Virus record (IMG/VR): IMGVR_UViG_3300031521_000245
Coordinates: 1-32,006 of that record
Source: a virus
Length of the DNA stretch: 32,006 nucleotides
Direction: 5' to 3' (one strand)
Positions 1,625 through 31,890 of the stretch are shown piece after piece. The stretch's first letter is position 1. Each line of letters starts with the position of its first letter. A program made the position numbers and the translations under genes. Under the pieces are notes generated by a model. That model was not told the DNA's origin and did not search any database. It saw nothing but the letters and a program-made list of their open reading frames with translations.

Positions 1625-1633
1625 GTTTATATT

Positions 1634-3523: not shown

Positions 3524-3547
3524 AATTTTTTATTTTCTTATCTATTG

Positions 3548-8177: not shown

Positions 8178-8208
8178 CAAAAGTACAACCGTTTTTTTGA
8201 TATTGCAA
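8178..8208 (-). promoter_or_regulatory. Bacteroidota-type promoter for the tRNA/Y-RNA transcript
   Basis: TTG (8208-8206), a 20-base spacer and TACTTTTG (8185-8178) match the Bacteroidota housekeeping sigma pattern TTG-N19-21-TAnnTTTG. The predicted start near 8170 is about 50 bases upstream of tRNA-Arg. Confidence 0.8.
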
Positions 8209-14521: not shown

Positions 14522-14552
14522 CAAAAGTATTACAGATTTTTAATAAATACAA
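14522..14552 (-). promoter_or_regulatory. Bacteroidota-type promoter of the ssDNA-binding protein gene, overlapped by phage motif
   Basis: TTG (14552-14550), a 20-base spacer and TACTTTTG (14529-14522) are followed by a leader of about 45 bases. GTATTTATT, a one-base variant of the recurrent phage motif, lies at 14550-14542 inside the spacer and touches the -33 box, so two kinds of polymerase may use this gap. Confidence 0.8.
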
Positions 14553-14586: not shown

Positions 14587-15999
14587 TTAATTACTTGTTT
14601 TAATTAATCCGTTGGATATCACCGTGAAAGATAGTGTTTCTTTTGTTTCATATGAATCACCATTAGACATTCTTATTTGTAGCTTGTAGTCTTGTGGTAT
14701 CAACCAAGACGTATCTAGATTAAATTCATAACCTTTACTTGTTCTATTTGCTTTAGTGAAAGGTATGACATCAATTTCGTATTTTCCACCTACTGTCGTA
14801 AATAGTCTATATTCTATATCTAATGGAAGATTATTGTTTTGATTTGGGTATAATTCTCTCATTAGTATTTTTACTTTTCTTACGATGCCCGAACTAATCT
14901 TTTCGCCTTCCCCAATTCCCCAAAACGTAAAATAGTAGTTCTTGGTGTTAATTTGGTTAGATAAATCGAATGTATAATACCTATCTTGAGATATTAAATA
15001 GAATTTATTCGTGAATTTAGATTCCCTACCATTTATCGTCACAGTCCATTCGTCTTTAAATATTACGGCATCCGGATATGTTTCAGAATCCACATTAATA
15101 CTTATCTTATAAATCCCCTTTGTTACATTGGTGATTGAATTTCCTGTTAATACTGCTACTTCATTATTTTCGTAATCATATATTACGACCTGATTAACAA
15201 CAATATTTTGTGAATTATTTCCAACTCCAACATATAAATATAAACTATTATCCTTATCTAAATAGAAAAAATTACGATCATCAATAACTTCATCGCCTAT
15301 TGTTGTTTCAATATATGGTTCATAATAAGTATTAGTGCCTTTAGCATGAAATGCAACTGCTTGCCTGAATTCCGTCGTAGTTGCTTCATATTGATCACCA
15401 AATTTAATTCCAAGTCCGTATGAAGTACCTGTATACGTTGTACCACTTCCAGCTATTCTTTGATTAATGTAATTAGTAACGTCAATCTCAAAATTTTCAT
15501 TGCCATTATCAAATGATTGTGTTCCAATAATCGTGGTTAATCCGCTTAAATATGCACCACCATTTACCGACCAAGGTAAATTAGTTTTTCTCTCATACCA
15601 GTTACTAGCATGTGACGGTTGTTGTGGATATGTTAAATCATTATATACAAAAGTATATCCTGCTCCTTCATCCCAATCTTCATTAACATTAAATAATTCT
15701 AAATCAAAACTAGATGCCCTATCGATCGTACTTAAATATGATTTACCCCCAATTAATTCAGGAGCATATCTGATTGTATTTGTCAAATGAAGTACATGCT
15801 TAGTGACATTAGTGGGGTTTATTGTACCGTCACTATATTTCATCTGTAAATTACTTAAATCTACGTCAAATAAAAATCTACTCACTTGCTTGCTCTCCGT
15901 GCCATATGAAATTTCGGTAACAGGATTACGTGAATTGTTTGATAATACATTATCAACAAGTGTTGAGTTCTTTTTGAAATATGATCTATAGATAGACAT
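14587..15999 (-). CDS. Probable virion structural protein with DNRLRE-like N-terminal part
   Basis: 470 residues starting MSIYRSYFKKNSTLVDNVLS. The N-terminal half (about 1-235) has features of DNRLRE-like beta domains found in adhesins and virion proteins: SRFLFDVDLSNLQ, a DWDEGAGYTF loop, NFEIDVTNYINQRIAG and a YGLGIKF turn. The C-terminal half is beta-rich, with Ig-like segments and many Tyr and Asn. No catalytic motif, signal peptide or membrane span. It starts 13 bases after the GTATTTATA motif and follows a terminator, so it is its own transcription unit, probably late. A role in a capsid decoration, neck or baseplate structure is plausible; which one is unknown. Confidence 0.6.
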   Translation of the reverse strand: MSIYRSYFKKNSTLVDNVLSNNSRNPVTEISYGTESKQVSRFLFDVDLSNLQMKYSDGTINPTNVTKHVLHLTNTIRYAPELIGGKSYLSTIDRASSFDLELFNVNEDWDEGAGYTFVYNDLTYPQQPSHASNWYERKTNLPWSVNGGAYLSGLTTIIGTQSFDNGNENFEIDVTNYINQRIAGSGTTYTGTSYGLGIKFGDQYEATTTEFRQAVAFHAKGTNTYYEPYIETTIGDEVIDDRNFFYLDKDNSLYLYVGVGNNSQNIVVNQVVIYDYENNEVAVLTGNSITNVTKGIYKISINVDSETYPDAVIFKDEWTVTINGRESKFTNKFYLISQDRYYTFDLSNQINTKNYYFTFWGIGEGEKISSGIVRKVKILMRELYPNQNNNLPLDIEYRLFTTVGGKYEIDVIPFTKANRTSKGYEFNLDTSWLIPQDYKLQIRMSNGDSYETKETLSFTVISNGLIKTSN

Positions 16000-16081: not shown

Positions 16082-18958
16082 TTATTTATAACCCGATGCA
16101 GCAGCACCACCTAATTTTTGCAAGCCAGATGATCCTTCTTTATATATTAAATGAACCATTCCATCGGCTCTTGATTTAATTGCAACTACGCTACCTTTCC
16201 AATTATTTGTTTCTGCTTGTTGTAATAAACCCTCTTTACTTCTCTCTAGCGTTCCACCAGTAAGTGCACATAAATCTGGGTGTTTTTGCATTTGAGCTAT
16301 ACTATCGTCAATGTCCTTAATAATCTTTGCTTTAGCAGTTTCTAGTTCGCCATTAGCATGCCCAGTTAGGAATTTTTGACCAAAATATTCATCAATACCT
16401 CCACCAATACCATTCTGAGACAATATATTTTTCGCTTCCTCTTTCGTCATTCCACCCATTACCCCCAACATTGCATCATTCATTTTTAACGTTTTCTTTG
16501 CTATTTGTATTTGATGCCAAAGTGCTGGGTTTTTTGACTTTATTTCACTTTCTTTTGATTCATCAATACCTTCACCATCATCTGTAAGCTGTACCATAAC
16601 AACACTTGGCATTATATCGAACCTACTTGAGAATTCATACGGATTGCTTAATGTGTTCGATAATCTTTCTTGTGCTATTTTAGCTTCTTCTGGTGTTTCA
16701 AATTTTAAATACAGAGTATTATTTTTTATATCGAACATAATTCTACCAAAATCGCCATCACTAAGACCTCTTTGTTGATCACTACTAAAATCAACTCTAT
16801 CGTCCTGACCAATTATCTCCATAAATTCACTAATTGAATTTTTATCCCACCCAGTTGATATGCCTTCGCTTATTTCATTAATTTGTGGTTCGTCGCCAAT
16901 ATTAGCTGGCTTAAAGCCTAATAGTATATCAGCATCATCGGTGTCCTTCTGTGCACCACATTGAGCGGCTTGCTCAGGGTCTTGGGTTTCATCTCCATAA
17001 TACATGGGGTCTTCAGTTAAGTGATCAAATACGATGTCTAATGCAGTCATGGGGTCATCTGTGTGTTCCATTTCAACAGCAATACCTTTCCTTATTTGTT
17101 CGCCGCTAAATTTACTCTCACCAGCATCATCGCCAATACCGCCGGGAATCTGATCGTCAGATTCAGGTTGATCTGAACTACTGTCGAAGTCTTTCACATA
17201 TCCCGGAGAATTTTTATCTACAAACATTCCCTCATCGGGCATTTCATCTTCCTCTTTAATTTTTAGACCATTGCTACATGCCACTCTCATACTTCCTCTC
17301 GATGTAAAATCTTTAGGATTATCTGTAGAATTAAAACCAATTTTATCTGGTTTTCCAGTAGTTTTACTTTGTTCTAAACCATTACTACACGCCTGTCTTA
17401 CGTTTCCACTTGGGATTTCTTCTTCAGAAAGTTCGTCCATAGGTTGTCCGTCTGTATAGTTTAAGTCGTACTGTAAGCCAATATAACCGATTCGTGGATT
17501 CCATGACATGATATAGCCATCTTTTTCATACTTCTGATCATTAGTACCTAGACCCAATTCGCTTGAACCCTCATGCTGACCGAAATTATGCCATTGTTTT
17601 AAATAATTTAATGCGGCGTCTTCGCCTTTTCTATCTAAAAGTTCAAGTGGCTCATACGCTTCATCGCCTTGCATAAAAACAACATTTTCATATTTGTCCA
17701 TATCTGTAGATTCTTCGATATTTGCAGAATTACTACCATCAACAGGCATTGTGTTTACGTCTAAAGGCTTTTCAGTCCCATTAACCGGAACTATTGTTTT
17801 TGTGTCTTGTTTAATTTTATAACCTTCTTGGGTTAAGAATTCTTGACCAGCTTTACCTTGTAAATATGCCACATCCGGACGACCCAGAAAATCTTCTTTT
17901 ACAAAAAGATACGGAGTTTTACCTAAGTGTTCTCCCTTAAATAATTTCCAACCACTACCCATCATATCCCTACTAAATAGAACTATTTTAACCCCAGAAA
18001 TCAGTGAATCCCATAAGTGAACGGCAACATATTTATGTTTATCTCTATTAATTCCGCTAGTTTTTCTCAACGTTGACATTTCATAAATTTCTCCTGCAGT
18101 ATTCATCTTTCTAATTTCATCATTAATATCTTGAGCCGTAGGTTTATATGATGCTCCCCTTTGAATAATTACACTATCATATGCGTTTCTTACTAGGTTT
18201 TTATTATCTTTACCTCTTTTACCCATTTGTGTTATTGGGCTTGCGCTAGCTGTTACTGAACCCTTTTCATCCCCGATTGAATCGATGATATTCATTGATT
18301 CCTCGTCGATTTCAATATTGCCATTCATATCGGTTTCAACTCCACCAGTATAATTACTATGTGCCCTTAAATTGGATTTATTATCCCAGCTATTCTTTTT
18401 AACTTTACTAACTGCAACATATCCGGGTGGTGAATCGAACGTCTTTCCAATCATTTCTGGATAGTGTGCTTTATTAAAATCATTATCTGCAACAAGATAT
18501 TCATATTCTGAAGCACTATCTTCGTCTATTTCTCTTCCTCTTAAATATGGAACTTCAGAGCTATTATCATTTTTTCCATATGGATTATTTACACCATCAA
18601 CATTAAAGCCACCTTCAGGAATTAATACTTCCTGTAGATCGTTAGGAGTTTCAAATTGCTGTCTGCCACTTTCTGTAAATAACCAATTAAAATTATTGGA
18701 TTCTTGAATATAATCATTATTCACTAAATACTCAACAACCCATGAAGGGTAGTGATCTCTAACATCAGGAATACCTTCATTCATTAAGTATGTCCAAATT
18801 TCTTTAACCTCTCTAATGTCAAGGGGATTAAATTTCGGTTTTTTTGGCGCATCGTGTTGATATGAATCACCCCATTCTTCCTTTAAAGTAATTTTATTGA
18901 CATTTTTCATCATTTCGAAAAGTCTTTCTTTAGTTCCGGGTTTGTTATATATTTTCAT
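16082..18958 (-). CDS. Large modular probable capsid-internal protein with targeting motif
   Basis: 958 residues. Residues 10-21 (KERLFEMMKNVN), followed by LKE at 25-27, match the N-termini of the next two genes upstream and look like a capsid-targeting peptide with an LxE protease site. The rest is modular: an N-terminal helical part (30-90), a long acidic middle, two ACSNGL motifs about 40 residues apart (RQACSNGL and RVACSNGL), then a segment IRKGIAVEMEHTDDPMTALD followed by HLTEDPMYYGD, which resembles the DUF5661 type from memory. The C-terminus is rich in Gly and Lys (LQKLGGAAASGYK). It is last in the four-gene capsid-type operon. It may be an internal protein packed into the head; no enzymatic motif is visible. 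Length and composition suggest fusion of several small phage domains. Confidence 0.65.
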   Translation of the reverse strand: MKIYNKPGTKERLFEMMKNVNKITLKEEWGDSYQHDAPKKPKFNPLDIREVKEIWTYLMNEGIPDVRDHYPSWVVEYLVNNDYIQESNNFNWLFTESGRQQFETPNDLQEVLIPEGGFNVDGVNNPYGKNDNSSEVPYLRGREIDEDSASEYEYLVADNDFNKAHYPEMIGKTFDSPPGYVAVSKVKKNSWDNKSNLRAHSNYTGGVETDMNGNIEIDEESMNIIDSIGDEKGSVTASASPITQMGKRGKDNKNLVRNAYDSVIIQRGASYKPTAQDINDEIRKMNTAGEIYEMSTLRKTSGINRDKHKYVAVHLWDSLISGVKIVLFSRDMMGSGWKLFKGEHLGKTPYLFVKEDFLGRPDVAYLQGKAGQEFLTQEGYKIKQDTKTIVPVNGTEKPLDVNTMPVDGSNSANIEESTDMDKYENVVFMQGDEAYEPLELLDRKGEDAALNYLKQWHNFGQHEGSSELGLGTNDQKYEKDGYIMSWNPRIGYIGLQYDLNYTDGQPMDELSEEEIPSGNVRQACSNGLEQSKTTGKPDKIGFNSTDNPKDFTSRGSMRVACSNGLKIKEEDEMPDEGMFVDKNSPGYVKDFDSSSDQPESDDQIPGGIGDDAGESKFSGEQIRKGIAVEMEHTDDPMTALDIVFDHLTEDPMYYGDETQDPEQAAQCGAQKDTDDADILLGFKPANIGDEPQINEISEGISTGWDKNSISEFMEIIGQDDRVDFSSDQQRGLSDGDFGRIMFDIKNNTLYLKFETPEEAKIAQERLSNTLSNPYEFSSRFDIMPSVVMVQLTDDGEGIDESKESEIKSKNPALWHQIQIAKKTLKMNDAMLGVMGGMTKEEAKNILSQNGIGGGIDEYFGQKFLTGHANGELETAKAKIIKDIDDSIAQMQKHPDLCALTGGTLERSKEGLLQQAETNNWKGSVVAIKSRADGMVHLIYKEGSSGLQKLGGAAASGYK

Positions 18959-18970
18959 ATCAATTTGTTT

Positions 18971-19468
18971 TTATTCGAAAATTATTGGATTGGCTTGACC
19001 AAATTCTCTCAGTAGTACGCCAGCAAGCGAATTCGCCTCATTTTCAGCGTCACTTCCGGTTGTACCAGAATCTTGATTTAGCTCATTATTTATTTTTTGT
19101 TTATGATGAACCAGTTCATGACCTAATGTTCTTAGAACATCAGCTAAGTTTCTGTTTTTTCCAACCACCCTTATTGTTTCGGTTTGTGGCATATAACCAC
19201 CAAAAGACCTTTGTTTTTCGGCTTCATTTTCAACATAACTAATTTGAATCTTAGGTAATTTATTTTCATCTAAATTAAATTTACCACAAACAAAATCAAT
19301 AAAGTCTTTAATTATGTCTTTTTTCTTTTCGATTGGTAGCTGTTGTTCACTCAATACGATTGGCTTTTCGGTGGAAATTACGTTAAACGTATTTTCAGCA
19401 AGATGATTCACTCGAATCATCATTTCCATAAGACGTTCTTTACTACCATTCGCACTGCGTATTCTCAT
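18971..19468 (-). CDS. HExxH metalloprotease-like protein with capsid-targeting-like N-terminus
   Basis: 165 residues. Residues 10-21 (KERLMEMMIRVN) and LAE at 23-25 match the shared N-terminal motif. The C-terminal half holds HELVHHKQ (117-124), the zincin HExxH signature, with acidic residues at 140-144 (DAENE) that could supply a third zinc ligand. Residues 75-105 form a beta region (KIQISYVENEAEKQRSFGG, then ETIRVVG) as in small M78-like zincins. A peptidase carried in the capsid could act during head maturation or in the host after injection. The known T4 prohead protease is a serine enzyme, so this is a different type. It starts by TAATG overlap with the upstream gene and ends 12 bases before the 958-residue gene. 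Activity is inferred from the motif. Confidence 0.7.
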   Translation of the reverse strand: MRIRSANGSKERLMEMMIRVNHLAENTFNVISTEKPIVLSEQQLPIEKKKDIIKDFIDFVCGKFNLDENKLPKIQISYVENEAEKQRSFGGYMPQTETIRVVGKNRNLADVLRTLGHELVHHKQKINNELNQDSGTTGSDAENEANSLAGVLLREFGQANPIIFE

Positions 19469-20268
19469 TACACTAATTCATTAAAACTTTTCTCAATATC
19501 TATTGTTGATTGCTTTGGAAGATCATCGAAATCGGCAACATATGTTCCATCCGGTAATTCTTTTATGCCGTGCTCGTTTTCTTCTTTTCTTTTTTGGTTG
19601 AACCAATTATCACCCCACATATCATTCAAATTAAAATAATAAGGGTACGATACCTGAGTTTTGTTCATGAGTTTTTCAACATTCGTTGGTTCACGTACTT
19701 CTTCAACATCAGAACTAAGTAACTTCATTTTATCATCCAAACCCTGAACATATCCATTTAGTGTTTCTAATTGATCGTGAATTGCTTGCATTGCTGCAAC
19801 ATTATGTTTAATTATATCGTTCTGTATATCATCCACAGGTGGCGTTGTTGGAACTGACGCACCCATTGGATTTAATTCGTCAGAAGGCATGTCGGTTGGC
19901 ATGTCTGTTGGAGGTGCATTCATTGGGTCGGCAGGTGTGGCAGGAGGTGGTGGAGTTCCCGTTGGTTCTCCCCCGGCGGGTGGTGCATTCAATCTAGGTT
20001 CTTCTGTCGATGGATCGGTGTCTAATGGGTTTTTTGAACCAATTTGCTGTGCATCTTCTTGTTCTCCTGCTTCATTTGTAAAACTTTGGGATGTTGGGAT
20101 TGGTTGACCATCATCGGTATTGTATATTTCAACCGGGAGCTTATCAAACTCATCTGAGCTATCTATAATTGGATGATATCTTGGAGATTCATTTACTCTA
20201 TAGTTCACACGATACATTATTTCATTAAGATGATTATTCTTAACTACACGTTTCTTATTTTCCATCAA
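19468..20268 (-). CDS. Pro-rich, coiled-coil protein with capsid-targeting-like N-terminus
   Basis: 266 residues. Residues 11-22 (NNHLNEIMYRVN) followed by VNE at 25-27 match the motif of the two downstream genes. Residues about 55-150 are disordered and Pro-rich (LNAPPAGGEPTGTPPPP, then two TDMP copies). Residues 155-195 form a helical, probably coiled-coil part (MQAIHDQLETLNGYVQGLDD). The C-terminus has aromatic segments (YPYYFNLNDMWGDNWFNQ). This architecture fits a scaffold or internal head protein, a role inferred from the motif and context. It overlaps the metalloprotease gene by one base (TAATG). I do not recognise the family. Confidence 0.65.
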   Translation of the reverse strand: MMENKKRVVKNNHLNEIMYRVNYRVNESPRYHPIIDSSDEFDKLPVEIYNTDDGQPIPTSQSFTNEAGEQEDAQQIGSKNPLDTDPSTEEPRLNAPPAGGEPTGTPPPPATPADPMNAPPTDMPTDMPSDELNPMGASVPTTPPVDDIQNDIIKHNVAAMQAIHDQLETLNGYVQGLDDKMKLLSSDVEEVREPTNVEKLMNKTQVSYPYYFNLNDMWGDNWFNQKRKEENEHGIKELPDGTYVADFDDLPKQSTIDIEKSFNELV

Positions 20269-20506: not shown

Positions 20507-20724
20507 TACAAAAACTCTAATGTTTCATTTGGAAAGAAAGAATATAACCATCCACTTCTTTTTGCTATTTCATATAGTTCAACATCACAATTAAAAAATT
20601 CGTTCGAATTTTCATATCTTTCTGCAATTTCTTTTACTCTATTTAGATTCCAAACATTAGAACAACTACCAACACCTCCAGTTTTAGCTCTATTTAACGG
20701 TATCCATCCATCGTTTATATATTT
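20506..20724 (-). pseudogene. Out-of-frame C-terminal part of the GIY-YIG endonuclease gene
   Basis: In the frame one base over from the intact reading frame, 72 codons run from 20724 to a TAG at 20506-20508. They encode KYINDGWIPLNRAKTGGVGS, then VWNLNRVKEIAERYENSNEF and ELYEIAKRSGWLYSFFPN. This is the expected end of the GIY-YIG domain (DGW-x-x-LN-x-A-K-x-GG) plus a sixth copy of the N-terminal W..C..A..GW repeat. The shift point is the A5 run at 20722-20726. An extra A, a +1 programmed shift or a sequencing error would all explain it. Confidence 0.8.
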
Positions 20725-21733
20725 TTAAAAATTTACCTTCTAATTTAACGGCAACATCAACAGCAAGATATTCAGTTAGTTGTTTAAATATTGGTACTAG
20801 TCCTGTTTTAGTTTTATGAATTACAACAGCATCTGTTTTATTTTTGTTTCTTGATTTTTTTCTAACATCAATGTTGTAAGTCAATCCGACATATACGTGT
20901 TTGTCTGGAAACTCGTAAGAATATATGCATTTATTGTATCTGTCCCCAACAACTATCATGTGTGAGCATATCTTCTCTATCCAACCAAGTCTTAAAGAAA
21001 CATTATATGCATGTTGAGAGCTTCTTATGAAATCTTTTTTATATTGATATTTCAATGCCTCTGATTTACAATTTTCGAAATTATTCCAATAATTATTTGG
21101 TAGTTTTTTATAAATCATATGTGAACAAATATCATCCAACCATCCGCTATATAATGCCGCAGCATATGCTTTAATGTTGTTCTTTTGAAATTCTTTTCTA
21201 TATGTATATTGCTTGGCGATTTCTTTACATGTTTCATAGTCCCAAATAATGCTAGATGAATAGGGCACGCCCATATGTATACATATGTCATTCATCCAAG
21301 AGTTTCTATTTGCTGCAGCATATGCACCGGGAGAACCTTTATAAAATTCAATCCTAGTATTATATTTTTTTGCCTCAATTCTGCATTTCTCAATATTCCA
21401 AAATCTAAATTTAGTGTTTGACTTCATATGTGAGCAAATATCACCAGTCCATCCATTTTTTTGTGCAATTTTATATGCTCTCTCAAACGTTTTTCTAAAA
21501 TCACTAACGCATTCAAAATTTTGAGCGCACTCTCTACATTTTTCGTATGTCCATTTTATTTTATTTAAGTTAATTAGTGTTTTCATGTGAGCACATGATT
21601 CATCAAATAATTTATTTTTTCTTAAATACTCATAAGCACCAGCATATTCTCTCTTAAAATCTCTTTTATTGGTGAATTCCAGTGCTGCGCTGAAAGAACT
21701 TTCTTTATCCCAATAATTTCTTTTTCTTCTCAT
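20690..21733 (-). CDS. GIY-YIG homing-endonuclease-like protein with tandem CxHM repeats (frameshifted end)
   Basis: 347 residues in the intact frame. Five tandem repeats of about 45 residues each follow the pattern W-x-x-E-x-C...A-x-x-Y...F...AY-x-A...GW-x-x-x-IC-x-HM (near 45, 100, 152, 200 and 255). Then comes a GIY-YIG-type domain, CIYSYEFPDKHVYVGLT, followed by a conserved Arg in NIDVRKK. The C-terminal catalytic part is split by a frameshift near 20724; the reading frame ends YKRWMDTVK at 20690, and the displaced frame continues the domain. Such proteins are homing endonucleases or repair nucleases, often mobile in phage genomes, and the repeats probably bind DNA or zinc. It has its own GTATTTATA motif and sits alone between a sugar operon and head genes, typical of an inserted mobile gene. 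Confidence 0.8.
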   Translation of the reverse strand: MRRKRNYWDKESSFSAALEFTNKRDFKREYAGAYEYLRKNKLFDESCAHMKTLINLNKIKWTYEKCRECAQNFECVSDFRKTFERAYKIAQKNGWTGDICSHMKSNTKFRFWNIEKCRIEAKKYNTRIEFYKGSPGAYAAANRNSWMNDICIHMGVPYSSSIIWDYETCKEIAKQYTYRKEFQKNNIKAYAAALYSGWLDDICSHMIYKKLPNNYWNNFENCKSEALKYQYKKDFIRSSQHAYNVSLRLGWIEKICSHMIVVGDRYNKCIYSYEFPDKHVYVGLTYNIDVRKKSRNKNKTDAVVIHKTKTGLVPIFKQLTEYLAVDVAVKLEGKFLKIYKRWMDTVK

Positions 21734-21788: not shown

Positions 21789-22430
21789 TCAACGATTATT
21801 TGACAGTATAATAACTAGATATCTTTTAAGATAGGAAAAATTTGGAAAGATTCTCAGGTATTGTTGATAACTAATTCCTTCTAAATCAATAAGCGATGCC
21901 TTGGTACGCTTGCTGATTTCTAAAATGATTTCGTCTGGGCTAAATTTAAAAAATTCGAACATCTTTAAATCAATTCCCATAATTGTTTCACCAGAAAGAA
22001 GATATAACATTTCGTTTTTATAATTATACATCGTATCGATATCCCCAACTAAATGATCAATAATTTCATTCGTTGTGTAGATGTTTGAAATAACTGGGTC
22101 AATGACGAAATATTTATATCTACTCTCAAAATAAAATCGAGGTGCTAAATTTACAAACTTATTAACACCCTTAATGTGTGATGTTTTATTTTCGCTAAAG
22201 GCAAATTCCCAATAAAGTTTATTGGGAACAATTATAGTTTCAAGAATGGATAGTTTTTCTCTCGTATCGGAATTAGTGATGTTATTTTTAATGAACGACC
22301 ATCCCACATATAATGTAGGTAGGTCAAAATCAATACTACTTGGGACTGTATCGCCCCTATAGTAATTAATGAATTCAACTTCAACGTGATTAACTAATTC
22401 GCTCTCATAGACAATATTAGCTATTTTCAT
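21789..22430 (-). CDS. Unknown phage protein with own host-type promoter
   Basis: 213 residues starting MKIANIVYESELVNHVEVEFINYYRGDTVPSS (continuing). Mixed alpha/beta, soluble, rich in Tyr, Phe and Ile, with no nucleotide-binding, DxD or metal motif that I can see. A segment TLYVGWSFIKNN (about 40-51) and a C-terminal helix-rich part (KMFEFFKFSPDEIILEI) are notable. It stops with TGA, showing that TGA is a normal stop here. A consensus host-type promoter precedes it, so it is expressed separately from the sugar operon upstream and perhaps early. Family not recognised. Confidence 0.65.
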   Translation of the reverse strand: MKIANIVYESELVNHVEVEFINYYRGDTVPSSIDFDLPTLYVGWSFIKNNITNSDTREKLSILETIIVPNKLYWEFAFSENKTSHIKGVNKFVNLAPRFYFESRYKYFVIDPVISNIYTTNEIIDHLVGDIDTMYNYKNEMLYLLSGETIMGIDLKMFEFFKFSPDEIILEISKRTKASLIDLEGISYQQYLRIFPNFSYLKRYLVIILSNNR

Positions 22431-22497: not shown

Positions 22498-23349
22498 TTA
22501 CCTGTAGTTAGTTCCATATTTAGTTAGATAATATTCATATGGTGAACTTCCATCAAGCCCATGATAATTCTTAAGTACTTCGAGATTAAAACCATACCCA
22601 TACTTACTAAACTCAGGAACTTTTCCAATATATTGTCCAAACTGTAAGGTATTTTCAATAATAGCCCCCATTCCAACCAACCATAAAATATCATCTATTT
22701 TTAACCCCAATACATTGGTTTTACCCGGATATCTGTTTGATAATGCCGTTTCGCCCATATGCATACATGCATATTTACCTCTAGTGCCGATTATCTTCTT
22801 ATTATCGTTACACATATGAGCAGTTTCAAAATTCCAAGGATTAGTACTTTTAGATAGAATTGAAAGCAGATAGTCTTTTCTCCAAATCGACGGTTGCGTA
22901 GTTATTCTATATTGAGAGTTTTGATTTTGTTCAATAATATGATAGTCATCGATATTTTCGATTATTTTACACGGCAAAAACTGTAAATCAACACACAATG
23001 CACATCTTACAATATTTTCATCTACTCGACATTTTTGAATGAGGAGATTTAAAATTCCCTCATTAACATAATCCAACGCTAGCATATCATCAAGCATAAA
23101 TATAATGTGATCGTTGGGGTCATTAATAATAATTGAATATATGTCTTTTGCCCAATGATCAATAGTTAATTGTTTGGGTCTCATTGAGATAAACTCGTAA
23201 TCCTCTGGTAGTTCGATACCACTACTGTCAAACCCTAAAATCTTAATGTTTTTCTTTACATTCCAGTATTTTTCCATTAAAGGAATTGCCGCTTTTAGAA
23301 TGTGTTTTGTTTTATCGCAAGTAACAATATACGTATTAATGTTTTCCAT
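22498..23349 (-). CDS. GT-A-like glycosyltransferase
   Basis: 283 residues. The N-terminus NTYIVTCDKTKHILKAAIPLMEKYW is a GT-A-type Rossmann start. IIFMLDDMLALDYV near 82-95 supplies a DD metal/nucleotide-sugar site, and RITTQPSIWRKDYLLSIL (about 148-165) resembles the acceptor-side region of small capsule glycosyltransferases. A late segment with GKYACMHMGETAL may be a substrate loop. It would transfer a sugar in the cytoplasm, with donor and acceptor unknown. It is the last gene of the sugar operon, 2 bases after the epimerase. GT-A fold is likely; the exact family is not identified. Confidence 0.6.
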   Translation of the reverse strand: MENINTYIVTCDKTKHILKAAIPLMEKYWNVKKNIKILGFDSSGIELPEDYEFISMRPKQLTIDHWAKDIYSIIINDPNDHIIFMLDDMLALDYVNEGILNLLIQKCRVDENIVRCALCVDLQFLPCKIIENIDDYHIIEQNQNSQYRITTQPSIWRKDYLLSILSKSTNPWNFETAHMCNDNKKIIGTRGKYACMHMGETALSNRYPGKTNVLGLKIDDILWLVGMGAIIENTLQFGQYIGKVPEFSKYGYGFNLEVLKNYHGLDGSSPYEYYLTKYGTNYR

Positions 23350-23351
23350 TT

Positions 23352-24212
23352 TTATATTAGCTTGAATATTTCTTCGTATGTAAAGTGTTCTGATTCAGCA
23401 CTACTTAAACCATTTTCTTCAATTTTTTCATGCTTATTATTTCCATTTTCAATTCCAATAATATTAACTTTAATATCCTTTCCGTTCGATCTATATTTAT
23501 TAATCATAGCCATCAATAAACCGTTTATTGTGATCGATTTTAGTTTGGGTATATATGGTGCAAAATCAATTGGTGAATTTAGTGAATCATATATTAATTG
23601 AACCGCTTCAGTAATGGTTAGGAAGAATCGGGTTGCATCACCGTCCGTTATCGTAATTGTTTCATTATTTAATATTGATTTTTTCCATTTACATAAAACA
23701 GAACCAGTAGAATATAATATATTACCATATCTTAAAACCCTAAACCTTATATCTCGATGAAGTCTTTGATATTCAAAAAACAATTTTTCGTTTAACATTT
23801 TTGTTGCACCATACGTACCAGATACCTGTACTGCGGCAGCTCCTGTAATTCCAATCACAAATTGAACTTTTGATTCTGCAGATACTTCTAATATGTTCAT
23901 CGTGCCAATAACGTTACTATTTATACACTCCAAAACATTATTCTCTGCCTCACCAACATATTTATATGCGGCTAAATGAAAAACCCCAGTAACTTTATTT
24001 GTTATTAGCGATCGAACTAATTCAATATCCTTAATATCCCCAACAAGATAACTAAAAGAATTACCATATTTCGCCTGTAGTTTACCTAGCTCTACCCAAT
24101 TTCTACCTATTGTCGCAACTCGCCCACCCTTTAAAATAATGTCATCAATTAAGTGACTTCCAAGAAAGCCATAACCACCAGTGACAACATATGTTTTATT
24201 TTTTTCTATCAT
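23352..24212 (-). CDS. NAD-dependent sugar-nucleotide epimerase/dehydratase (extended SDR, CapD/PseB-like)
   Basis: 286 residues. The N-terminal NAD-binding motif TGGYGFLGSH is at about 11-20, GDIKD near 58-62, HLAAYKYVGEAENN near 79-92 and NSNVIGTMNILE near 98-109. The catalytic Tyr-Lys pair is in YGATK, as in SDRs, and a late FFLTITEAVQLIYDS segment matches polysaccharide dehydratases of the CapD/PseB/FlaA1 type. PseB-type enzymes usually have TDKA before this site; here the corresponding segment is ITGAAAVQVSG, so the reaction may be epimerisation rather than 4,6-dehydration. It would make an activated sugar for the surrounding transferases. The gene overlaps the upstream GT-D-like gene by four bases (ATGA). 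Confidence 0.82.
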   Translation of the reverse strand: MIEKNKTYVVTGGYGFLGSHLIDDIILKGGRVATIGRNWVELGKLQAKYGNSFSYLVGDIKDIELVRSLITNKVTGVFHLAAYKYVGEAENNVLECINSNVIGTMNILEVSAESKVQFVIGITGAAAVQVSGTYGATKMLNEKLFFEYQRLHRDIRFRVLRYGNILYSTGSVLCKWKKSILNNETITITDGDATRFFLTITEAVQLIYDSLNSPIDFAPYIPKLKSITINGLLMAMINKYRSNGKDIKVNIIGIENGNNKHEKIEENGLSSAESEHFTYEEIFKLI

Positions 24213-24973
24213 ACAATATATCTCCCATAATATGAATTATATTCCCTAATTAATCTATCGAAAATTAATCTATGGTGTATCATCGTATATTTACGTGATT
24301 GAAAGAAATAATCCCATGCACTTCCAATATCATAATAGCTGTTTTTATTGTCGGTTTTCGAAAACTTATGTATTATAATACCAGACATCATCCCGGCAAT
24401 AAAACAGTAATTAATTTTTTCTGTCCCGGTATTAATTGTTTTGATTCTTTCGTTCACCGAATTCATCGATAAGTAACAGTTTTTTGAAGGTATTTCAATT
24501 ATTTCAAAGTTTTTAAATAGTTTTAAGTCCCTCATGTGAGAAGGGGCAATTAATACTACCTTCCTTTGATTTAAAAAATCATTAAATTCTTCGAAATAAC
24601 TCGGTTTCATTAATACATCATAATAAAAATACCCGCTATTCATTTTTAAATCGGGATTTTCACTATATATTTCTTTGAACATTTCTATATAGTTCCAAAA
24701 ATAGTTCCTTCCACCCGAAATAATATAATTATCCCTATACCTATATTCAGTTAAAACCTGCTTAGTATCAACACCCAATTGTTTAAAATACTGATGACCA
24801 TCACAATTGGTATGATGTTCATTATTGATGTTTTTTAATGTTAGTATTGAATTAAATTCACCGTCATTATATCTCCCATGAAAAAAATTATCGGCTTTAG
24901 CCAATTTCATGAAATCTTCAGTTGGTGTATCGTAATAAATATCAATATCTTTTAGGTCTTTAATATTTGCCAT
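24209..24973 (-). CDS. GT-D-like glycosyltransferase
   Basis: 254 residues. The N-terminal FFHGRYNDGEFNSIL resembles the RxGDGE motif of GT-D fold (DUF1792-like) glycosyltransferases. Further matches are RKVVLIAPSHMRDL (about 137-150), a NCYLSMNSV segment, and INYCFIAGMMSGIIIHKF with NSYYDIGSAWDYF, typical of the C-terminal part of such enzymes. It would add a sugar, usually glucose, to an acceptor glycan or protein. In this operon it overlaps neighbours at both ends. The fold call is by motif memory. Confidence 0.65.
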   Translation of the reverse strand: MANIKDLKDIDIYYDTPTEDFMKLAKADNFFHGRYNDGEFNSILTLKNINNEHHTNCDGHQYFKQLGVDTKQVLTEYRYRDNYIISGGRNYFWNYIEMFKEIYSENPDLKMNSGYFYYDVLMKPSYFEEFNDFLNQRKVVLIAPSHMRDLKLFKNFEIIEIPSKNCYLSMNSVNERIKTINTGTEKINYCFIAGMMSGIIIHKFSKTDNKNSYYDIGSAWDYFFQSRKYTMIHHRLIFDRLIREYNSYYGRYIV

Positions 24974-25644
24974 TCTTCAATTTTAATTAAATATTGTAGA
25001 AATTTATTTTTTGTTGTTATAAAATCTATTGTTGATTGATCTTTTCCATCGACAATTTGTGTCATAAAATCACCTTGAATTGCTCTTAACTTCATATTTA
25101 AATAATGATTACCTACAAAACATAACCACAAGTCTTCAACAAATGAAAATTCATTGGGTATAATATATAGTTCTTCACACTTAAAAACTTTTGACGGTAA
25201 TATCATGCCCCCAGTACCGCAATAATGAACATTTTGATTATCTTCAAAGACTTGATACCTATCCGTATAATTACTGCTTCTAAATCTGAATGCCCACCTA
25301 GATTTTATTGCATTTTCATCATAATTGGAGTGAAAGATGTTTACCATATTTTCATTAAAAACTTGATCGTCATCAATAAAGATTATTTTATCGTGTTCAT
25401 CAGCTATATATTTAGCAAATTTAAATCTTCCAAAACCACCAATATTGATCGGGGAATGACGTACTTTAATTTTAAAATTGTGTTCTATTTCGATTTTTTT
25501 ATTGATTACATCTTCTATGTCTGGATTATTATTCCAAATATAGAAGATAAAATTTAAATTCTTTTGTTTATCTAATAGCTCTAGTGTTCTATCTAGGTTT
25601 TTAATACGTTTCCACGTACACATTATTATTGCAGTTGGTTTCAT
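24952..25644 (-). CDS. GT2-family glycosyltransferase
   Basis: 230 residues. AIIMCTWKRIKNLDRTLELL is a GT2 start, followed by FYIWNNNPD and the metal-binding IIFIDDDQVF near 88-97. NIGGFGRFKFA and a later YCGTGGMILPSKVF acceptor region fit the family. It ends in overlap with the GT-D-like gene by 22 bases and begins by ATGA overlap with the next transferase. It would use a UDP- or other NDP-sugar; the acceptor is unknown. Confidence 0.75.
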   Translation of the reverse strand: MKPTAIIMCTWKRIKNLDRTLELLDKQKNLNFIFYIWNNNPDIEDVINKKIEIEHNFKIKVRHSPINIGGFGRFKFAKYIADEHDKIIFIDDDQVFNENMVNIFHSNYDENAIKSRWAFRFRSSNYTDRYQVFEDNQNVHYCGTGGMILPSKVFKCEELYIIPNEFSFVEDLWLCFVGNHYLNMKLRAIQGDFMTQIVDGKDQSTIDFITTKNKFLQYLIKIEEWQILKT

Positions 25645-26411
25645 TTAAATATCGTATTATATTTCTTAACGTCAAACTCTCGGCTCTTTTTTGCTTCTTC
25701 GAATTTAAGTAAATTAATTTTCATTAATGTCTGAACATCGCCGGGATGAAATGGTTTATGAAATTGGTGCACTACCAACGGATTTTCTATTATCTTAACA
25801 GTCATTCCCTTATTTTGTATTCTCAGGATAAACTCATTGTCGTCATATCCTAAACCATTATAATATCTCTCATCAAACCCACCCAATTCATATAGGTCTT
25901 CCCTTGTAATTGCCGAGCAAAAATGAAGCATTTCCGGTCTATATATTGGGTGATTGTACCATCCAATCCAAGCATTTATATATCGGGTTAGATATGGATT
26001 TATTATTGAATTAATTTCCTCTCCGGCATATACACGTTCAGTTAATGCTGAATCAATTGAAAATGCTGAGTAATTAAGATACGTGCCCTTTTCGATGTTA
26101 TTTATTACATGACCAACAATGTCACCATTATGAATACATTCAGCATTTTGTAAAATAACGATGTCTGTGTCTGCAAGAGCCAATCCAGTATTAAATGGAA
26201 TGCATGGATTAATCCAAGTTTTATTTTTCATTGTGATGATCTTAACATTCTCCTCTTCGAAACAACTAATGTCGTTTCCATCGGTGCTTGCATCATCAAC
26301 AATAATTATTTTAACGTCGTGACCGTATTGCTTTATTGACTTCAAAGTATTTTCTAGTTGGCGTTTTCTATTCCAATAGGTCATTACAATAGTTACTGAT
26401 TTATCTTTCAT
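25641..26411 (-). CDS. GT2-family glycosyltransferase with GT7-like C-terminus
   Basis: 256 residues. SVTIVMTYWNRKRQLENTLKSI at the N-terminus, VKIIIVDDASTDGND near 34-48 (metal site) and DTDIVILQNAECIH near 82-95 are GT2 traits. FCSAITREDLYELGGFDERY and GYDDNEFILRIQ near 165-200 are the C-terminal GGFDE/DDxEF region seen in galactosyltransferase-like GT2/GT7 domains. It is clearly a paralogue of the 27235-28014 gene and of the C-terminal half of the 28018-29907 gene. Confidence 0.85.
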   Translation of the reverse strand: MKDKSVTIVMTYWNRKRQLENTLKSIKQYGHDVKIIIVDDASTDGNDISCFEEENVKIITMKNKTWINPCIPFNTGLALADTDIVILQNAECIHNGDIVGHVINNIEKGTYLNYSAFSIDSALTERVYAGEEINSIINPYLTRYINAWIGWYNHPIYRPEMLHFCSAITREDLYELGGFDERYYNGLGYDDNEFILRIQNKGMTVKIIENPLVVHQFHKPFHPGDVQTLMKINLLKFEEAKKSREFDVKKYNTIFK

Positions 26412-27232
26412 ACTTTTAATTTAAAGCTATTAATAATTTCTTTCCAATATTCGAAATTTAGTTTTTCTAAGTTCCAGTTTTTCGATTTGATTCTATAGTA
26501 TTCACTTAAAAGAAAATCCTCAGTTAATTCTTCCCATGAACTAACAAAACATATGGGCAAATCAGTGTAAAATTGATTATTTATGTTAATTTTCTCTATC
26601 GGTATTGTGTTCATATATAGACACTCCCACGTTCGATGAGTATCAATTCCATTCCCTTCTGGAGACACAACAAATTTATGTGAATATATATCATTAAGAT
26701 ATTCATCGAAACCACTACCATTTTTCCCGTATTTTAGAGTCGCATATGGCTTATCTTTCAATATCTCATATGGAAGATTTCTTTCTTTGGGATTTGTACT
26801 GATCGCATGATTCACATAAATAAGGTTTTTATATATTTTGGGTTCGGTTAGTTTATTCAACATTTTCCCCTTTTTATTTGTTTCTATGAACCACCATCTA
26901 TTTTCAAGTCCGATTGGTATTGATTGTATTTTGGGGTTGACAGTATTTACGTTTTGAGCAAACCACATAATTATATTCTCTGGAACAATATAGCTATTAT
27001 CGATATTATAATCGTAATTGTGTGTAATAACAATAACTCTTTTATTTATTGTTTCAATAATTTTAAGCAATTCTTTCGCATATACAGTATGTGTATATAT
27101 TGTACATCCATTAAATAGATTATCTATTTTGAGTGTATTTGGAAGATTATTATAATCCCCACTCGCTTTCGCATTGGGAGAGAATGTGAAATCTGCCATA
27201 TTTTGAAAATGTTCTCCAGTTATGAGTTCCAT
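26408..27232 (-). CDS. Exostosin/GT47-like glycosyltransferase
   Basis: 274 residues. The diagnostic segment YSHKFVVSPEGNGIDTHRTW followed by ECLYMNTIPI (about 188-217) matches the C-terminal nucleotide-sugar site of exostosin-like GT47 enzymes. RVIVITHNYDYNI near 65-77 and QSIPIGLENRWWFIET near 104-119 fit its GT-B-type N-terminal part. It would transfer a sugar, possibly a hexuronic acid or galactose, but specificity cannot be read. It overlaps the next gene by four bases and follows the previous one by two. Confidence 0.78.
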   Translation of the reverse strand: MELITGEHFQNMADFTFSPNAKASGDYNNLPNTLKIDNLFNGCTIYTHTVYAKELLKIIETINKRVIVITHNYDYNIDNSYIVPENIIMWFAQNVNTVNPKIQSIPIGLENRWWFIETNKKGKMLNKLTEPKIYKNLIYVNHAISTNPKERNLPYEILKDKPYATLKYGKNGSGFDEYLNDIYSHKFVVSPEGNGIDTHRTWECLYMNTIPIEKININNQFYTDLPICFVSSWEELTEDFLLSEYYRIKSKNWNLEKLNFEYWKEIINSFKLKV

Positions 27233-27234
27233 AC

Positions 27235-28014
27235 TTAATTAGCTCTATAGGTTTTTTCAATTTTAGTTATTTCATTAAATAATCTTTTATTTTTTTCGTG
27301 TAGATATCCCATATCAGGAAGATTATAATATACACTATCGTGGTATTGATGTATTACCGATACATTATCTGGAATTACAACCTTTAACCCTAATCTCCTC
27401 ACTCTTTCAAGAAACTCATTATCGTCGTATGCAATTCCATACGCATATCTTTCATCAAAACCATTCAATAAATCCAAGTTATTTTTAGTTATTGCTGAAC
27501 AAAAATGAAATCCGGTTGGTCTATATTTAGAATGATTATACCACCCAATTATTGGACTTCCACCTGTTGGTCTTTGTGGTAGTGTTTTAAAATACTCGCC
27601 AATTGTTTCGCTCTCAAAATAGCTTGGTAAATTTTTGGTTATCTCATGATTTACAGCATATGCAGATATTGAAATATAGGTATTTTCGTCTATATACTCG
27701 TTTATGTGAGTAAGTACATCTTGAACATGTATACATTCTGGATTCTGTATAACTACAATCTCTCCACGCACTGCACGAAATCCAATATTATACGGAACAC
27801 ATGAATTCACATACCATTTATCCTTTTCATTAATTCTAACAACATTTAAAAAAGAAAACTCCGTCTCAAATTCTTCTACCCTATGCTCAGGAAAACTACA
27901 ATCATCAACAATAATAACTTCAAAATCCCTAAATTTTGATTTATTTATCGATTTTAGAGTTTCATATAGTTGTCTTTTCCTATTATAATATGACATTACT
28001 ATTGATATCTTCAT
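27235..28014 (-). CDS. GT2-family glycosyltransferase (paralogue of neighbours)
   Basis: 259 residues. MKISIVMSYYNRKRQLYETL and VIIVDDCSFPEHR form the GT2 donor site. EIVVIQNPECIHVQDVL and FHFCSAITKNNLDLLNGFDERY, then YDDNEFLERVRRLG, form the C-terminal acceptor/metal region. About half its residues match the second domain of the adjacent 28018-29907 gene, which indicates tandem duplication. The gap to the upstream gene is only 3 bases, so they are translated together. Confidence 0.85.
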   Translation of the reverse strand: MKISIVMSYYNRKRQLYETLKSINKSKFRDFEVIIVDDCSFPEHRVEEFETEFSFLNVVRINEKDKWYVNSCVPYNIGFRAVRGEIVVIQNPECIHVQDVLTHINEYIDENTYISISAYAVNHEITKNLPSYFESETIGEYFKTLPQRPTGGSPIIGWYNHSKYRPTGFHFCSAITKNNLDLLNGFDERYAYGIAYDDNEFLERVRRLGLKVVIPDNVSVIHQYHDSVYYNLPDMGYLHEKNKRLFNEITKIEKTYRAN

Positions 28015-28017
28015 TTT

Positions 28018-29907
28018 TCAATATATGTTAATGGAATTATTTGCTTTATGTGCTGTCTCAATTTTGGTCACGGTTCTTAATAGAACTTCATTTATTGCAC
28101 AAAGTTTGTCTGCCTTAAGGATATTATAATATACACACTCGTGATATTGATGTATAACCGCAACATCATCAACTATTGATGATTCTAAGCCTAATCTTTC
28201 AATTCTAGCAATAAACTCATCGTCGTCTTTCGCAACACCCTTTGCATATCTTTCATCAAATCCATTTAACTTATTCATATTGCTTCTGGTTATTGCTGAA
28301 CAATAGTGATATTTTGTTGGATTATATTTTTTATGATTCAACCATCCGTTTTTATCGACAGAATTCCATTCGTGTTGTGGAAAATTATTCAGTAATTCAC
28401 TAACATTTTCATATTCGCCTAATAGTTTTGTTTCTTCATCAATAGCATATGTTTGTATGGTAATATAATTACTATCGTTAACGTTACGATCAGCGTAGCT
28501 TAAAATATCTCCAACATGAAAACATTCCGGGTTTTGTAACATTATTATTTCACCCCTAGAAGCACGTATTCCAATATTGAAGGGAATACATGAATTTACG
28601 TACCGTTTATTTTTCTTCTCCAATCTAATAATTTTTAAATATGGGAAATCAGTAAGAAATTCTTCCACTCTTTGCTTATCGTCACTACCATCATCAACAA
28701 CAATCAATTCGAAGTCACTAAATTTTGAACGACTTATGGATTTAAGGGTTTCATGAAATTGCATTTTTCTATTATAATATGACATTACAATCGATATTCT
28801 AGGTCTTTTGGCTAACATTACTTTAATTTCGTCGTCCTTTAAATTAATTACGTAATTAGAAATGGCACTAAATGTTATTTTATGGTTAGAATAGTTTAGA
28901 TGTGTTAATATGTTGTTATATTTTTGTGATGTTGGATGTCCACCATACCAATGATACCCAACTGAGTCGTAGTTAAACTCATTGACTGTTTTTTGTTCCC
29001 TATAACATGAATTGACCTTTCCACAATCAAAATCATAAATTAATTCGGTGGGTAAATTATAGAATTTTAATGTTGGAAATCTACTAATTAAAATATTCCA
29101 GACCTTTTGGCTTCCAGTCATTTCGTGCACCAATTCTACCCCCATTGACTGATAGCCCTTTTTTGCCAAATGTATATTATTTACACCAAATTCAAACAAC
29201 GTTTTGAAGTATTCGTTATTTATTGATGAACCCAAGAATCCTATTGTTAATGCCCATTCATTTGGTAAATATTCATATTCATGAATAATAGTATCGAATC
29301 CTTCGGCATTTATTTTATTATAAAAATCATTTAGCGGTCTAAAAAATAATACATCCATGTCACAATAGAACCCGCCTCCAATAAATAATTGGTAATACCT
29401 AAATAAATCACTCTCATGAATTGGTGACAAGTCTTTTAATGTGATTTCTAATTCTTTAGGAAAAGCGACGTTTTCAATTTTAACTCCTAACTTATATAGC
29501 TCAGTAAAATAACACTTACCTTCATAATTATGGTAGTCTTGTAGTTCAGCCCCTCCCCAAGTTTTAGTTTTCGATTTATTAGAAGACAAATATAGTGTAA
29601 CGTCCCAATTTGGGTTCATCTTTTTGAATGAATATATTGTCATATATCTCATCCAAGATAATGTCGTATTGTTCCAATAAAAAAACATCCTTTTGGGTAT
29701 CTCTTTTTTTAGTATAAAATTTACCTTATTAGATGTGGATTTTGAAGATATTTGTTTTATTGTGTTTTTATTGGGCACTATGTCCTTTTTTAAAACCGGA
29801 ATTTCATTTTGGTTTAATCTATTGAGATTCCTATCATTTTCTTTGCTCATGTTTCTGATACTGATTGATTTAATGATCTCTTCTTTTGTAGTAAATCGTT
29901 TTTTCAT
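28018..29907 (-). CDS. Two-domain glycosyltransferase: GT32-like plus GT2-like
   Basis: 629 residues. After a basic, disordered 65 residues, the first domain has IPKRMFFYWNN (70-80) and SDLFRYYQLFIGGGFYCDMD, with a DxD motif (DMD, 183-185) typical of GT32/capsular transferases. The second domain starts near 367 with RISIVMSYYNRKMQFHETLK and has VVDDGSDD, IIMLQNPECFHVGDIL, YHYCSAITRSNMNKLNGFDE and DDDEFIARIE, and is closely similar to the next gene. Two transfers by one protein, perhaps successive sugars of one glycan, are likely. TAATG overlap with the upstream gene. Confidence 0.85.
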   Translation of the reverse strand: MKKRFTTKEEIIKSISIRNMSKENDRNLNRLNQNEIPVLKKDIVPNKNTIKQISSKSTSNKVNFILKKEIPKRMFFYWNNTTLSWMRYMTIYSFKKMNPNWDVTLYLSSNKSKTKTWGGAELQDYHNYEGKCYFTELYKLGVKIENVAFPKELEITLKDLSPIHESDLFRYYQLFIGGGFYCDMDVLFFRPLNDFYNKINAEGFDTIIHEYEYLPNEWALTIGFLGSSINNEYFKTLFEFGVNNIHLAKKGYQSMGVELVHEMTGSQKVWNILISRFPTLKFYNLPTELIYDFDCGKVNSCYREQKTVNEFNYDSVGYHWYGGHPTSQKYNNILTHLNYSNHKITFSAISNYVINLKDDEIKVMLAKRPRISIVMSYYNRKMQFHETLKSISRSKFSDFELIVVDDGSDDKQRVEEFLTDFPYLKIIRLEKKNKRYVNSCIPFNIGIRASRGEIIMLQNPECFHVGDILSYADRNVNDSNYITIQTYAIDEETKLLGEYENVSELLNNFPQHEWNSVDKNGWLNHKKYNPTKYHYCSAITRSNMNKLNGFDERYAKGVAKDDDEFIARIERLGLESSIVDDVAVIHQYHECVYYNILKADKLCAINEVLLRTVTKIETAHKANNSINIY

Positions 29908-31523
29908 TATGGTTCATATAATATCGACCCATATAAATCAAGCACCAGTTTTGCAGAAAATTTACTATCGTACTTATTTATATCCTCTGGAACTTGGTAA
30001 AGCTCTTTAGTTAAAATAACACCATCTTTATCTACTGTATATATCCATCCGGGTTTTCCACAAAGAAATCCTTCAATTGTTGTCCTGCCCTTAAAAATAC
30101 CTGCTGTATAATCGCATTTTTTTATGTAGTCTTCAACATTCGCTTTAACCCCCAAATATTTAACGTGTTCATTCTCCTCATATCTATTACCTAAATTTAG
30201 ACCGCTATTATCAGAACCAATAATCCAAAGCAATTGACCGTTCTGTTGGGTTGTGTTTATTAAATCCTCAATTATATTCACTCTAAGGTGGTCTATTGTT
30301 CCAACGAATAGAATTACCTCCCTTTCATTTTTAATGTGCTTATATCTCGTATTAAAGCGTGTAGTGTCAAATGGATTGTCAATTGTTACTATCATACTAC
30401 TATCAATTCCAAATGATTCGATATATTCAGTAATTGATTCTCTGATTGAAATGTATTTCTTTATTGCGGGATTAATAATTGGAACTTCGAAATTAGGTAT
30501 AACTTCACTTCTTATGTGCATTACCGCAGGAGTATTTGGATATAATTGTAGTATTACATCACCAATTGGCTTATGATTTATATGTATAATATCAAACTCC
30601 GCTTCATTCTTAGTGAACCGAAACTTACCTTCATCATTTAAAACGTAATTAGGTAAATTATTAAATGAATAAACCTTTACTCCATTTTTATTCGCTTTCG
30701 ACACTAATGGCTCACCAACAACTACCGAAACTATACTTACATCACATCCGAGTTTCATAAGTTCTTTAGATAGTTCATAGTTTGATACCTCAGAACCAGT
30801 ATAATTCTTAAAAAATTGGCAGCATATTAATACACGTAATTTATTTTCAGAAACATGACGTATTGGAAGGCAATAGCTCTCGGTGAATTTAACCCGATTC
30901 TCTTCCCAGCTCTCGTTGACCTGACCTATTGATTTATGTAAAATTCTAATGTTTCCAATAACACCAATATTAACATTTTCATAGTAATTATCTAAAGCAA
31001 AACTTAAATCGTAAAAATGAAATTTACCAAAATTTTCATTAAATCCGCAAACTATTTTTTCCGGGTCAATAGCAATAAACACACCATCAATAATTGCAAC
31101 ATCTTTAATTCCTCGAATTTCTGAAGAAAATTCACTAGCCCAAACATCTATTTCATTACAATGCTCAACAGTTCCGTACATTTTACTCCTATCTTCCCAC
31201 CATATTCCGCTCTCAGGAACGAAAGTACTACCTGCAACACCAAGTATACCAAAATCAGAGCCATTAAAGTGTCGCAATAACACTTTCCCCCAGTCCTTAG
31301 TTTTTATTATTATGTCATTATGGCACATAAGAAAAATTGAATTTGGGTCAGCGTGTTCTCTTAATGCTTTATTATATATCTCAGATAACGAGTATTCATT
31401 ATGGTTTTGGTAACACACTATCTTATGTTTAACACCAATGCCACCACCTATTTCTTTAATAAATTCACTGTTTTCTTCTTCGGATAGGTGCGAAGAAAAT
31501 ACCACAACGATGCTATTTTTCAT
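29907..31523 (-). CDS. Two-domain glycosyltransferase: GT2-like plus GT1/GT4-like
   Basis: 538 residues from the ATG at 31523. I prefer this start to an in-frame ATG at 31619, because the longer form would overlap the gp53-like gene and because a consensus promoter lies at 31545-31575, inside the longer form's 5' end. The N-terminal part (SIVVVFSSHLSEEENSEF, NHNEYSLSEIYNKAL, IFLMCHNDIIIKTKDW) is GT2-like. The C-terminal part from about residue 235 (VLICCQFFKNYTGSEVSNYE, then ELMKLGCDVSIVSVV, ending GIFKGRTTIEGFLCGKPGWI) is a GT-B GT1/GT4-type domain. It is the first gene of the sugar operon. The two domains suggest two transfer steps. Confidence 0.78.
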   Translation of the reverse strand: MKNSIVVVFSSHLSEEENSEFIKEIGGGIGVKHKIVCYQNHNEYSLSEIYNKALREHADPNSIFLMCHNDIIIKTKDWGKVLLRHFNGSDFGILGVAGSTFVPESGIWWEDRSKMYGTVEHCNEIDVWASEFSSEIRGIKDVAIIDGVFIAIDPEKIVCGFNENFGKFHFYDLSFALDNYYENVNIGVIGNIRILHKSIGQVNESWEENRVKFTESYCLPIRHVSENKLRVLICCQFFKNYTGSEVSNYELSKELMKLGCDVSIVSVVVGEPLVSKANKNGVKVYSFNNLPNYVLNDEGKFRFTKNEAEFDIIHINHKPIGDVILQLYPNTPAVMHIRSEVIPNFEVPIINPAIKKYISIRESITEYIESFGIDSSMIVTIDNPFDTTRFNTRYKHIKNEREVILFVGTIDHLRVNIIEDLINTTQQNGQLLWIIGSDNSGLNLGNRYEENEHVKYLGVKANVEDYIKKCDYTAGIFKGRTTIEGFLCGKPGWIYTVDKDGVILTKELYQVPEDINKYDSKFSAKLVLDLYGSILYEP

Positions 31524-31544: not shown

Positions 31545-31575
31545 CAAACGTAGTTCTTTTTTTCCTAATATGCAA
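31545..31575 (-). promoter_or_regulatory. Bacteroidota-type promoter of the sugar operon
   Basis: TTG (31575-31573), a 20-base spacer and TACGTTTG (31552-31545) are followed by a leader of about 15 bases to the ATG at 31523. Its location between the gp53-like stop and the first glycosyltransferase shows the sugar genes can be transcribed by host polymerase independently of the baseplate genes. Confidence 0.78.
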
Positions 31576-31578
31576 GGT

Positions 31579-31890
31579 TTATTTGTTACGATACGCAGCC
31601 AATTGTTCTTCGTAATCACCTTTTGCTTTAGAAAGCGGAAATGGTATTCTAATTAAATCTCCCTGAGCAATATCGAATTCTGATACATATTGTGGATTTG
31701 CATATGTTATCAGAAAATCAAAGAAGGGATTTCCATAATATTTATTTGCGTACTTATCGTATCTACTAAATTGCCCCCAATATTCATATTTATCACTGCT
31801 ATTAATTGGTAGTATAATAAATGGCATTAATTCAGTAGTACCATTCCCATTTTTTAGTATTGAATATCTGTTATAATCTGTGTGTGGCAT
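31579..31890 (-). CDS. 53: gp53-like baseplate wedge protein
   Basis: 103 residues, shorter than T4 gp53 (about 196). YEYWGQFSRYDKYANKYYGN and PFFDFLITYANPQYVSEFDI are followed by QGDLIRIPFPL. This pattern (RYD-x-x-YGNP-x-x-x-x-LI-x-x-ANP...EFD-x-x-x-G-x-x-IRIP) is typical of the gp53/LysM-like baseplate wedge family, which holds the wedges together in contractile tails. It starts 1 base after the stop of the previous gene. The short length suggests only the core domain is kept. Confidence 0.75.
   Translation of the reverse strand: MPHTDYNRYSILKNGNGTTELMPFIILPINSSDKYEYWGQFSRYDKYANKYYGNPFFDFLITYANPQYVSEFDIAQGDLIRIPFPLSKAKGDYEEQLAAYRNK

Follow-up and report, generated by a model that had tools for sequence, protein, structure and literature searches.

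Islands of glycosyltransferase (GT) genes have been noted in phages for years without agreement on what they modify, and islands comparable to the one described here have already been published. The virus record analyzed here (the window; a whole linear IMG/VR record of 32,006 bases) carries such an island of nine genes, and the question it raises is which molecule receives the sugars. The initial annotation had named three candidates: virion proteins, phage DNA bases and the host surface.

Gene content of the island

ORF calls place nine minus-strand genes in close succession across positions 22498-31523. Rechecking of the ORFs gave spacings, from 22498 upward, of +2, -4, -22, -4, -4, +2, +3, and -1 bases, in agreement with the overlaps of 1-22 bases and gaps of 2-3 bases first described. 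The genes, designated below by their lowest coordinate, are as follows.

29907..31523, minus strand: head enzyme, 538 aa, Glyco_tranf_2_5 domain (PF13712, E 2.6e-23) and GT4-type second domain (PF13439, E 8e-8)
28018..29907, minus strand: two-domain GT, N-terminal GT32-type (Gly_transf_sug; PF04488, E 1e-7) and C-terminal GT2 (PF00535, E 3e-11)
27235..28014, minus strand: GT2, paralogue of the 28018 C-terminal domain (PF00535, E 3e-14)
26408..27232, minus strand: GT114, relative of the PBCV-1 beta-xylosyltransferase A075L (phmmer E 2.5e-44; Foldseek 8asa/8avq/8q8i)
25641..26411, minus strand: GT2, third paralogue (PF00535, E 6e-12; alignment)
24952..25644, minus strand: GT2-like, marginal (PF00535, E 1.3e-4, 22.4 bits, just under the cut-off of 23.3)
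24209..24973, minus strand: GT-D-like transferase (GT-D, PF08759, matched in four of the seven members of its family; DGE motif invariant)
23352..24212, minus strand: SDR nucleotide-sugar enzyme with an altered active-site motif (Polysacc_synt_2; PF02719, E 2e-53)
22498..23349, minus strand: probable GT-A transferase, on weak evidence (invariant DD; low-confidence model; best Foldseek match KfiA, E 7e-3)

The proposed inventory of eight GT genes and one SDR gene is backed by folds or motifs, its weak part being 22498, which gave no match in family searches and is at best a probable GT-A-like transferase. About ten transferase domains are present, and the earlier figure of at least ten requires that 22498 be included. 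The window copy of 24209 had no Pfam GT match of its own, the GT-D matches being those of other members of its family. GT-D is described from a protein O-glycan pathway in the published account (PMC6973325). Alignment showed three paralogous GT2 domains, those of 25641 and 27235 and the one at the C terminus of 28018, with 68% DNA identity between 27235 and the 28018 C-terminal domain (28123-28797), so the operon grew in part by duplication. The 23352 SDR has TGAAA in place of the STDKA found in its homologue on contig L004, and it retains YGATK; it lacks the Asp-Lys pair, which we take to be the catalytic motif of FlaA1/PseB-type 4,6-dehydratases. Its best PDB match, 6bwc, is likewise without TDK. 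The start of 29907 was placed at the ATG at 31523, at or near which nearly all of its homologues begin; an alternative, longer GTG frame reaches 31619.

Megablast and tblastn searches of 50,697 phage records gave no hit to the island DNA, the head enzyme, the gp53-like gene described below, or the 27235 GT2, and remote matches were obtained for 26408 and the SDR only. Scans of viral contigs with 22498 and 28018 as queries likewise returned nothing.

Position of the island in related phages

The island of the window lies between two genes that recur in its relatives.

31579..31890, minus strand: gp53-like gene of the baseplate wedge, the constant border on the upstream side (phrog_7145, baseplate wedge subunit, E 6e-4 for this copy alone)
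21789..22430, minus strand: conserved gene for a 213-aa protein, constant downstream border

A helicase search recovered 50 relatives, records of 99-365 kb among them, and 12 jumbo relatives (99-365 kb) that were found through the helicase rather than through a GT served as an independent set for linkage to gp53. A gp53-like gene was present in 12 of 16 relative records searched (59-69% identity), and all 12 members of the family matched phrog_7145, the best at E 2.7e-6. The T4-type major capsid protein gp23 was found in nine of ten relatives searched (E 1e-62 to 1e-65), and no capsid gene lies in the window. The phage is a T4-type jumbo phage and probably has a host among the Bacteroidota.

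Gene order in the fetched regions was fam5 (900-1000 aa), gp53, GT island, 213-aa gene. The island directly follows the gp53-like gene and precedes the 213-aa gene, with both borders present in 12 of 13 phages; L072 is the one fetched region inside which the 213-aa gene was not found. The window contig stops 116 bases past the gp53-like gene, and a fam5 gene of its own would fall beyond the contig end. A gp26-like baseplate gene was also seen farther upstream in one relative. The operon and the baseplate neighborhood first proposed from the window are supported.

Within these borders, the head enzyme is present in 13/13 phages and is single-copy in 12/12 relatives, and at two distinct loci (L134 and L140) it is the sole gene between gp53 and the 213-aa gene. 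Its identity across homologues is 35-65%, and that of the GT-D-like gene is 16-35%. As for the other island genes of the window, one has relatives in six other phages, one in four, and one in a single phage, and the rest have none. The islands of the relatives hold many GT2 genes together with methyltransferases, sugar epimerases, dehydratases, and aminotransferases. Position, head enzyme and usually the promoter are kept, and nearly every other gene is swapped among relatives. Among 80 loci collected through the head enzyme, a set in which linkage to gp53 is partly ascertained, 39 had no detectable gp53 nearby, and most of these belong to a more distant group; this is a point against the reading favored below.

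Several other observations were made around these loci. In several relatives a conserved GT2 of ~270 aa (L081:125-922) and its ~390-aa neighbor (L081:947-2128) were seen close to phoH, beyond the baseplate genes and outside the window. The cassette of a distant phage (L102:14099-16296) contains frames that by eye resemble two transketolase halves. In the window, 20690-21733 encodes an internal-repeat protein matching phrog_20046, between the 213-aa and 266-aa genes, and the proteins of 16082-18958, 18971-19468, and 19468-20268 share an N-terminal motif like KERLxEMMxxVN (by eye in 16082), also seen in relatives, a possible signal for targeting or assembly.

A Bacteroidota-type promoter precedes the island

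A match to the pattern TTG-N20-TAnnTTTG lies between the gp53-like gene and the head enzyme.

31545..31575, minus strand: Bacteroidota-type promoter, TTG-N20-TACGTTTG (TTGCATATTAGGAAAAAAAGAACTACGTTTG)

This promoter (31575-31545) falls within the longer GTG frame of 29907. With spacers of 19-21 bases allowed, 26 of 37 distinct loci carried a promoter of this type no more than 130 nt past gp53. It also stood ahead of gp32 in all eight cases; none was found upstream of gp53 (0/41) or fam5 (0/34), and the background was 3.3%. Matches in the window also occur at 8208 (minus strand), upstream of a tRNA cluster, and at 14552 (minus strand), upstream of a gp32-like gene. A scan with the sigma-70 consensus was at chance (87 sites vs. 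80.2 ± 8.3). The single host-type promoter that had been proposed is supported as one of Bacteroidota type, conserved in position. According to the published description, housekeeping genes of Bacteroides fragilis have TAnnTTTG and TTTG as their -7/-33 consensus, and the match suggests a Bacteroidota host and transcription by the host polymerase. Because the island starts at a host-type promoter, its enzymes are probably made before virion proteins accumulate, and transcription of the island would be early.

Gene 26408 is related to a chlorovirus capsid-glycan transferase

Gene 26408, initially described as GT47-like, is better placed in GT114. It matched A075L across residues 66-267 (phmmer E 2.5e-44), and its D74, R151, and R200 align to the A075L catalytic residues Asp73, Arg158, and Arg208 and are invariant in three homologues. 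In a test for the GT-B fold, a model of 26408 matched A075L at a Foldseek E of about 1e-15; the model is of low confidence (pLDDT 55.5), as is that of 22498, because the alignments hold three sequences. Among the structure matches for these two proteins we relied on that to A075L alone, which phmmer confirmed independently. Beta-xylosyl transfer is a candidate activity of 26408.

A075L is a beta-xylosyltransferase that acts on the N-glycan carried by the major capsid protein of PBCV-1 (PMC11571054, PMC9614988). In the published descriptions, GT114 is reported chiefly in viruses and bacteria, and the PBCV-1 GTs number eight, all of them expressed early and most predicted to be soluble. The bacterial GT114 relatives that we found were in three MAGs (Spirochaetota, Bacteroidales, and Flavobacteriia), too few for a host to be named from them. 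A copy of 26408 with 51% identity was present on L004, an unrelated siphophage-like contig, in a different GT cassette amid head and tail genes. Since GT114 has bacterial homologues, the acceptor is not fixed by homology alone.

The likely acceptor

Genes for the Wzx flippase family were sought in 12 relatives and found in none, while 13 of 14 control genomes scored, and membrane-like segments were predicted in 2 of 140 island ORFs. With no Wzx and so few membrane proteins, the sugars are more likely to be added in the cytoplasm to an acceptor that is soluble, and the constant place of the island beside baseplate genes favors a virion protein. On these grounds, and given the capsid-glycan relative of 26408, we favor glycosylation of a virion protein, a reading to which we give about an even chance. 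The operon would then be a cytoplasmic glycan-assembly cassette in which the conserved head enzyme starts or founds a glycan and the exchangeable GTs encoded downstream lengthen it with sugars that differ between phages. The acceptor would be conserved, most likely a virion protein and probably a tail or baseplate component. Transcription would proceed from the host-type promoter, as for the phage gp32 gene, and the particle would bear a strain-specific sugar coat that may benefit the phage by shielding it or changing its adsorption. The glycan may be long and specific, as was originally suggested. A Ser/Thr-rich C-terminal extension was sought on the major capsid protein of relatives and was not found, which counts against the virion protein as acceptor. 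The Ser/Thr/Asn-rich fibers earlier proposed as targets were sustained in composition (28-32% Ser+Thr+Asn in the proteins of 2-4537 and 14587-15999 vs. 19.4 ± 3.2%); their identity as fibers drew no support from family searches, which gave no match except a weak one to CBM96 in 14587.

The same enzymes might instead alter the host surface, acting in the cytoplasm on lipid-linked O-antigen or capsule intermediates that the host flippase then exports, with the result that competing phages are excluded. The missing flippase and the scarcity of membrane proteins speak against this, although products of GTs in the cytoplasm could be passed to the flippase of the host, and the islands of the relatives do encode UDP-GlcNAc 2-epimerases, GDP-mannose dehydratase, DegT aminotransferase, PfkB kinase, and cytidylyltransferase-like proteins, all typical of O-antigen loci. 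Change of the host surface is also how the islands of pelagimyophages and cyanophages have been interpreted in print. Against it stand the constant position of the island within the baseplate region and the fact that the nearest characterized relative of 26408 works on a capsid protein glycan, and we regard this explanation as possible and on balance rather unlikely.

The idea that the GTs glycosylate phage DNA found little support, and we consider it improbable. T4 puts glucose on hydroxymethylcytosine, and thymidylate synthase family proteins are encoded in 11 of 12 relatives. Of three such proteins that were read, the one from G012 is divergent, whereas those from G001 and G013 keep PFN(I/L)AS, presumably the ordinary thymidylate synthase motif. 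Moreover, the island sits in the baseplate region, and nine enzymes is a large number for modifying a base. Least probable of all, and in our view very doubtful, is that the cassette is for the most part neutral cargo that takes up room in a large head. High gene turnover would fit such cargo, and stuffer DNA was raised as a possibility for cyanophage LPS clusters in the published discussion (PMC3037559); however, the frames are open and tightly packed in nearly every relative, and the head enzyme and promoter are strongly conserved.

Comparison with known systems

Moraphages (PMC12619734) are described as large aquatic phages with genomes of 200-307 kb and predicted hosts that are mostly Bacteroidota; their core genes include PhoH, gp25, uvsW, and four GT orthogroups whose role that description leaves unresolved. 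The present phage may resemble them in its size, probable Bacteroidota host, and GTs; the description gives no gp53 island, conserved head gene, or promoter. The host recognition cluster of pelagimyophages (PMC7029224), interpreted by its authors as changing the host O-chain, is likewise a hypervariable GT island within a T4-type structural region; it is placed between VrlC and gp14 with tail fiber genes, and the account mentions no constant head GT. The LPS clusters of cyanophages P-SSM2 and S-SSM7 (PMC3037559, PMC7824862) are also large sets of GT and sugar-nucleotide genes in T4-type phages, one of them near phoH, but lie in another place and another host, and GT114 is not mentioned in these descriptions.

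PBCV-1 capsid glycosylation (PMC11571054) is similar in that 26408 belongs with GT114 and keeps the catalytic residues and in that the PBCV-1 GTs are described as mostly soluble and early; PBCV-1 infects a eukaryotic alga, and the relation covers one of the nine island genes. Mycobacteriophage particles carry glycans on structural proteins (Freeman 2023, via PMC12619734). These are reported at the C-termini of the capsid and tail tube, whereas the present relatives lack such a capsid extension.

We tentatively propose, as a reading somewhat short of an even chance, that large T4-type phages of Bacteroidota possess a glycosylation locus with a constant head and a variable body, a counterpart of the capsule locus, whose soluble enzymes, including a relative of the chlorovirus capsid-glycan transferase, would build a lineage-specific, protein-linked coat. 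The fixed head enzyme, constant neighbors, and recurrent promoter offer a defined place to test whether giant phages diversify the sugars of their own particles, as chloroviruses do. Diversification of this kind could influence adsorption and the evasion of host defense.
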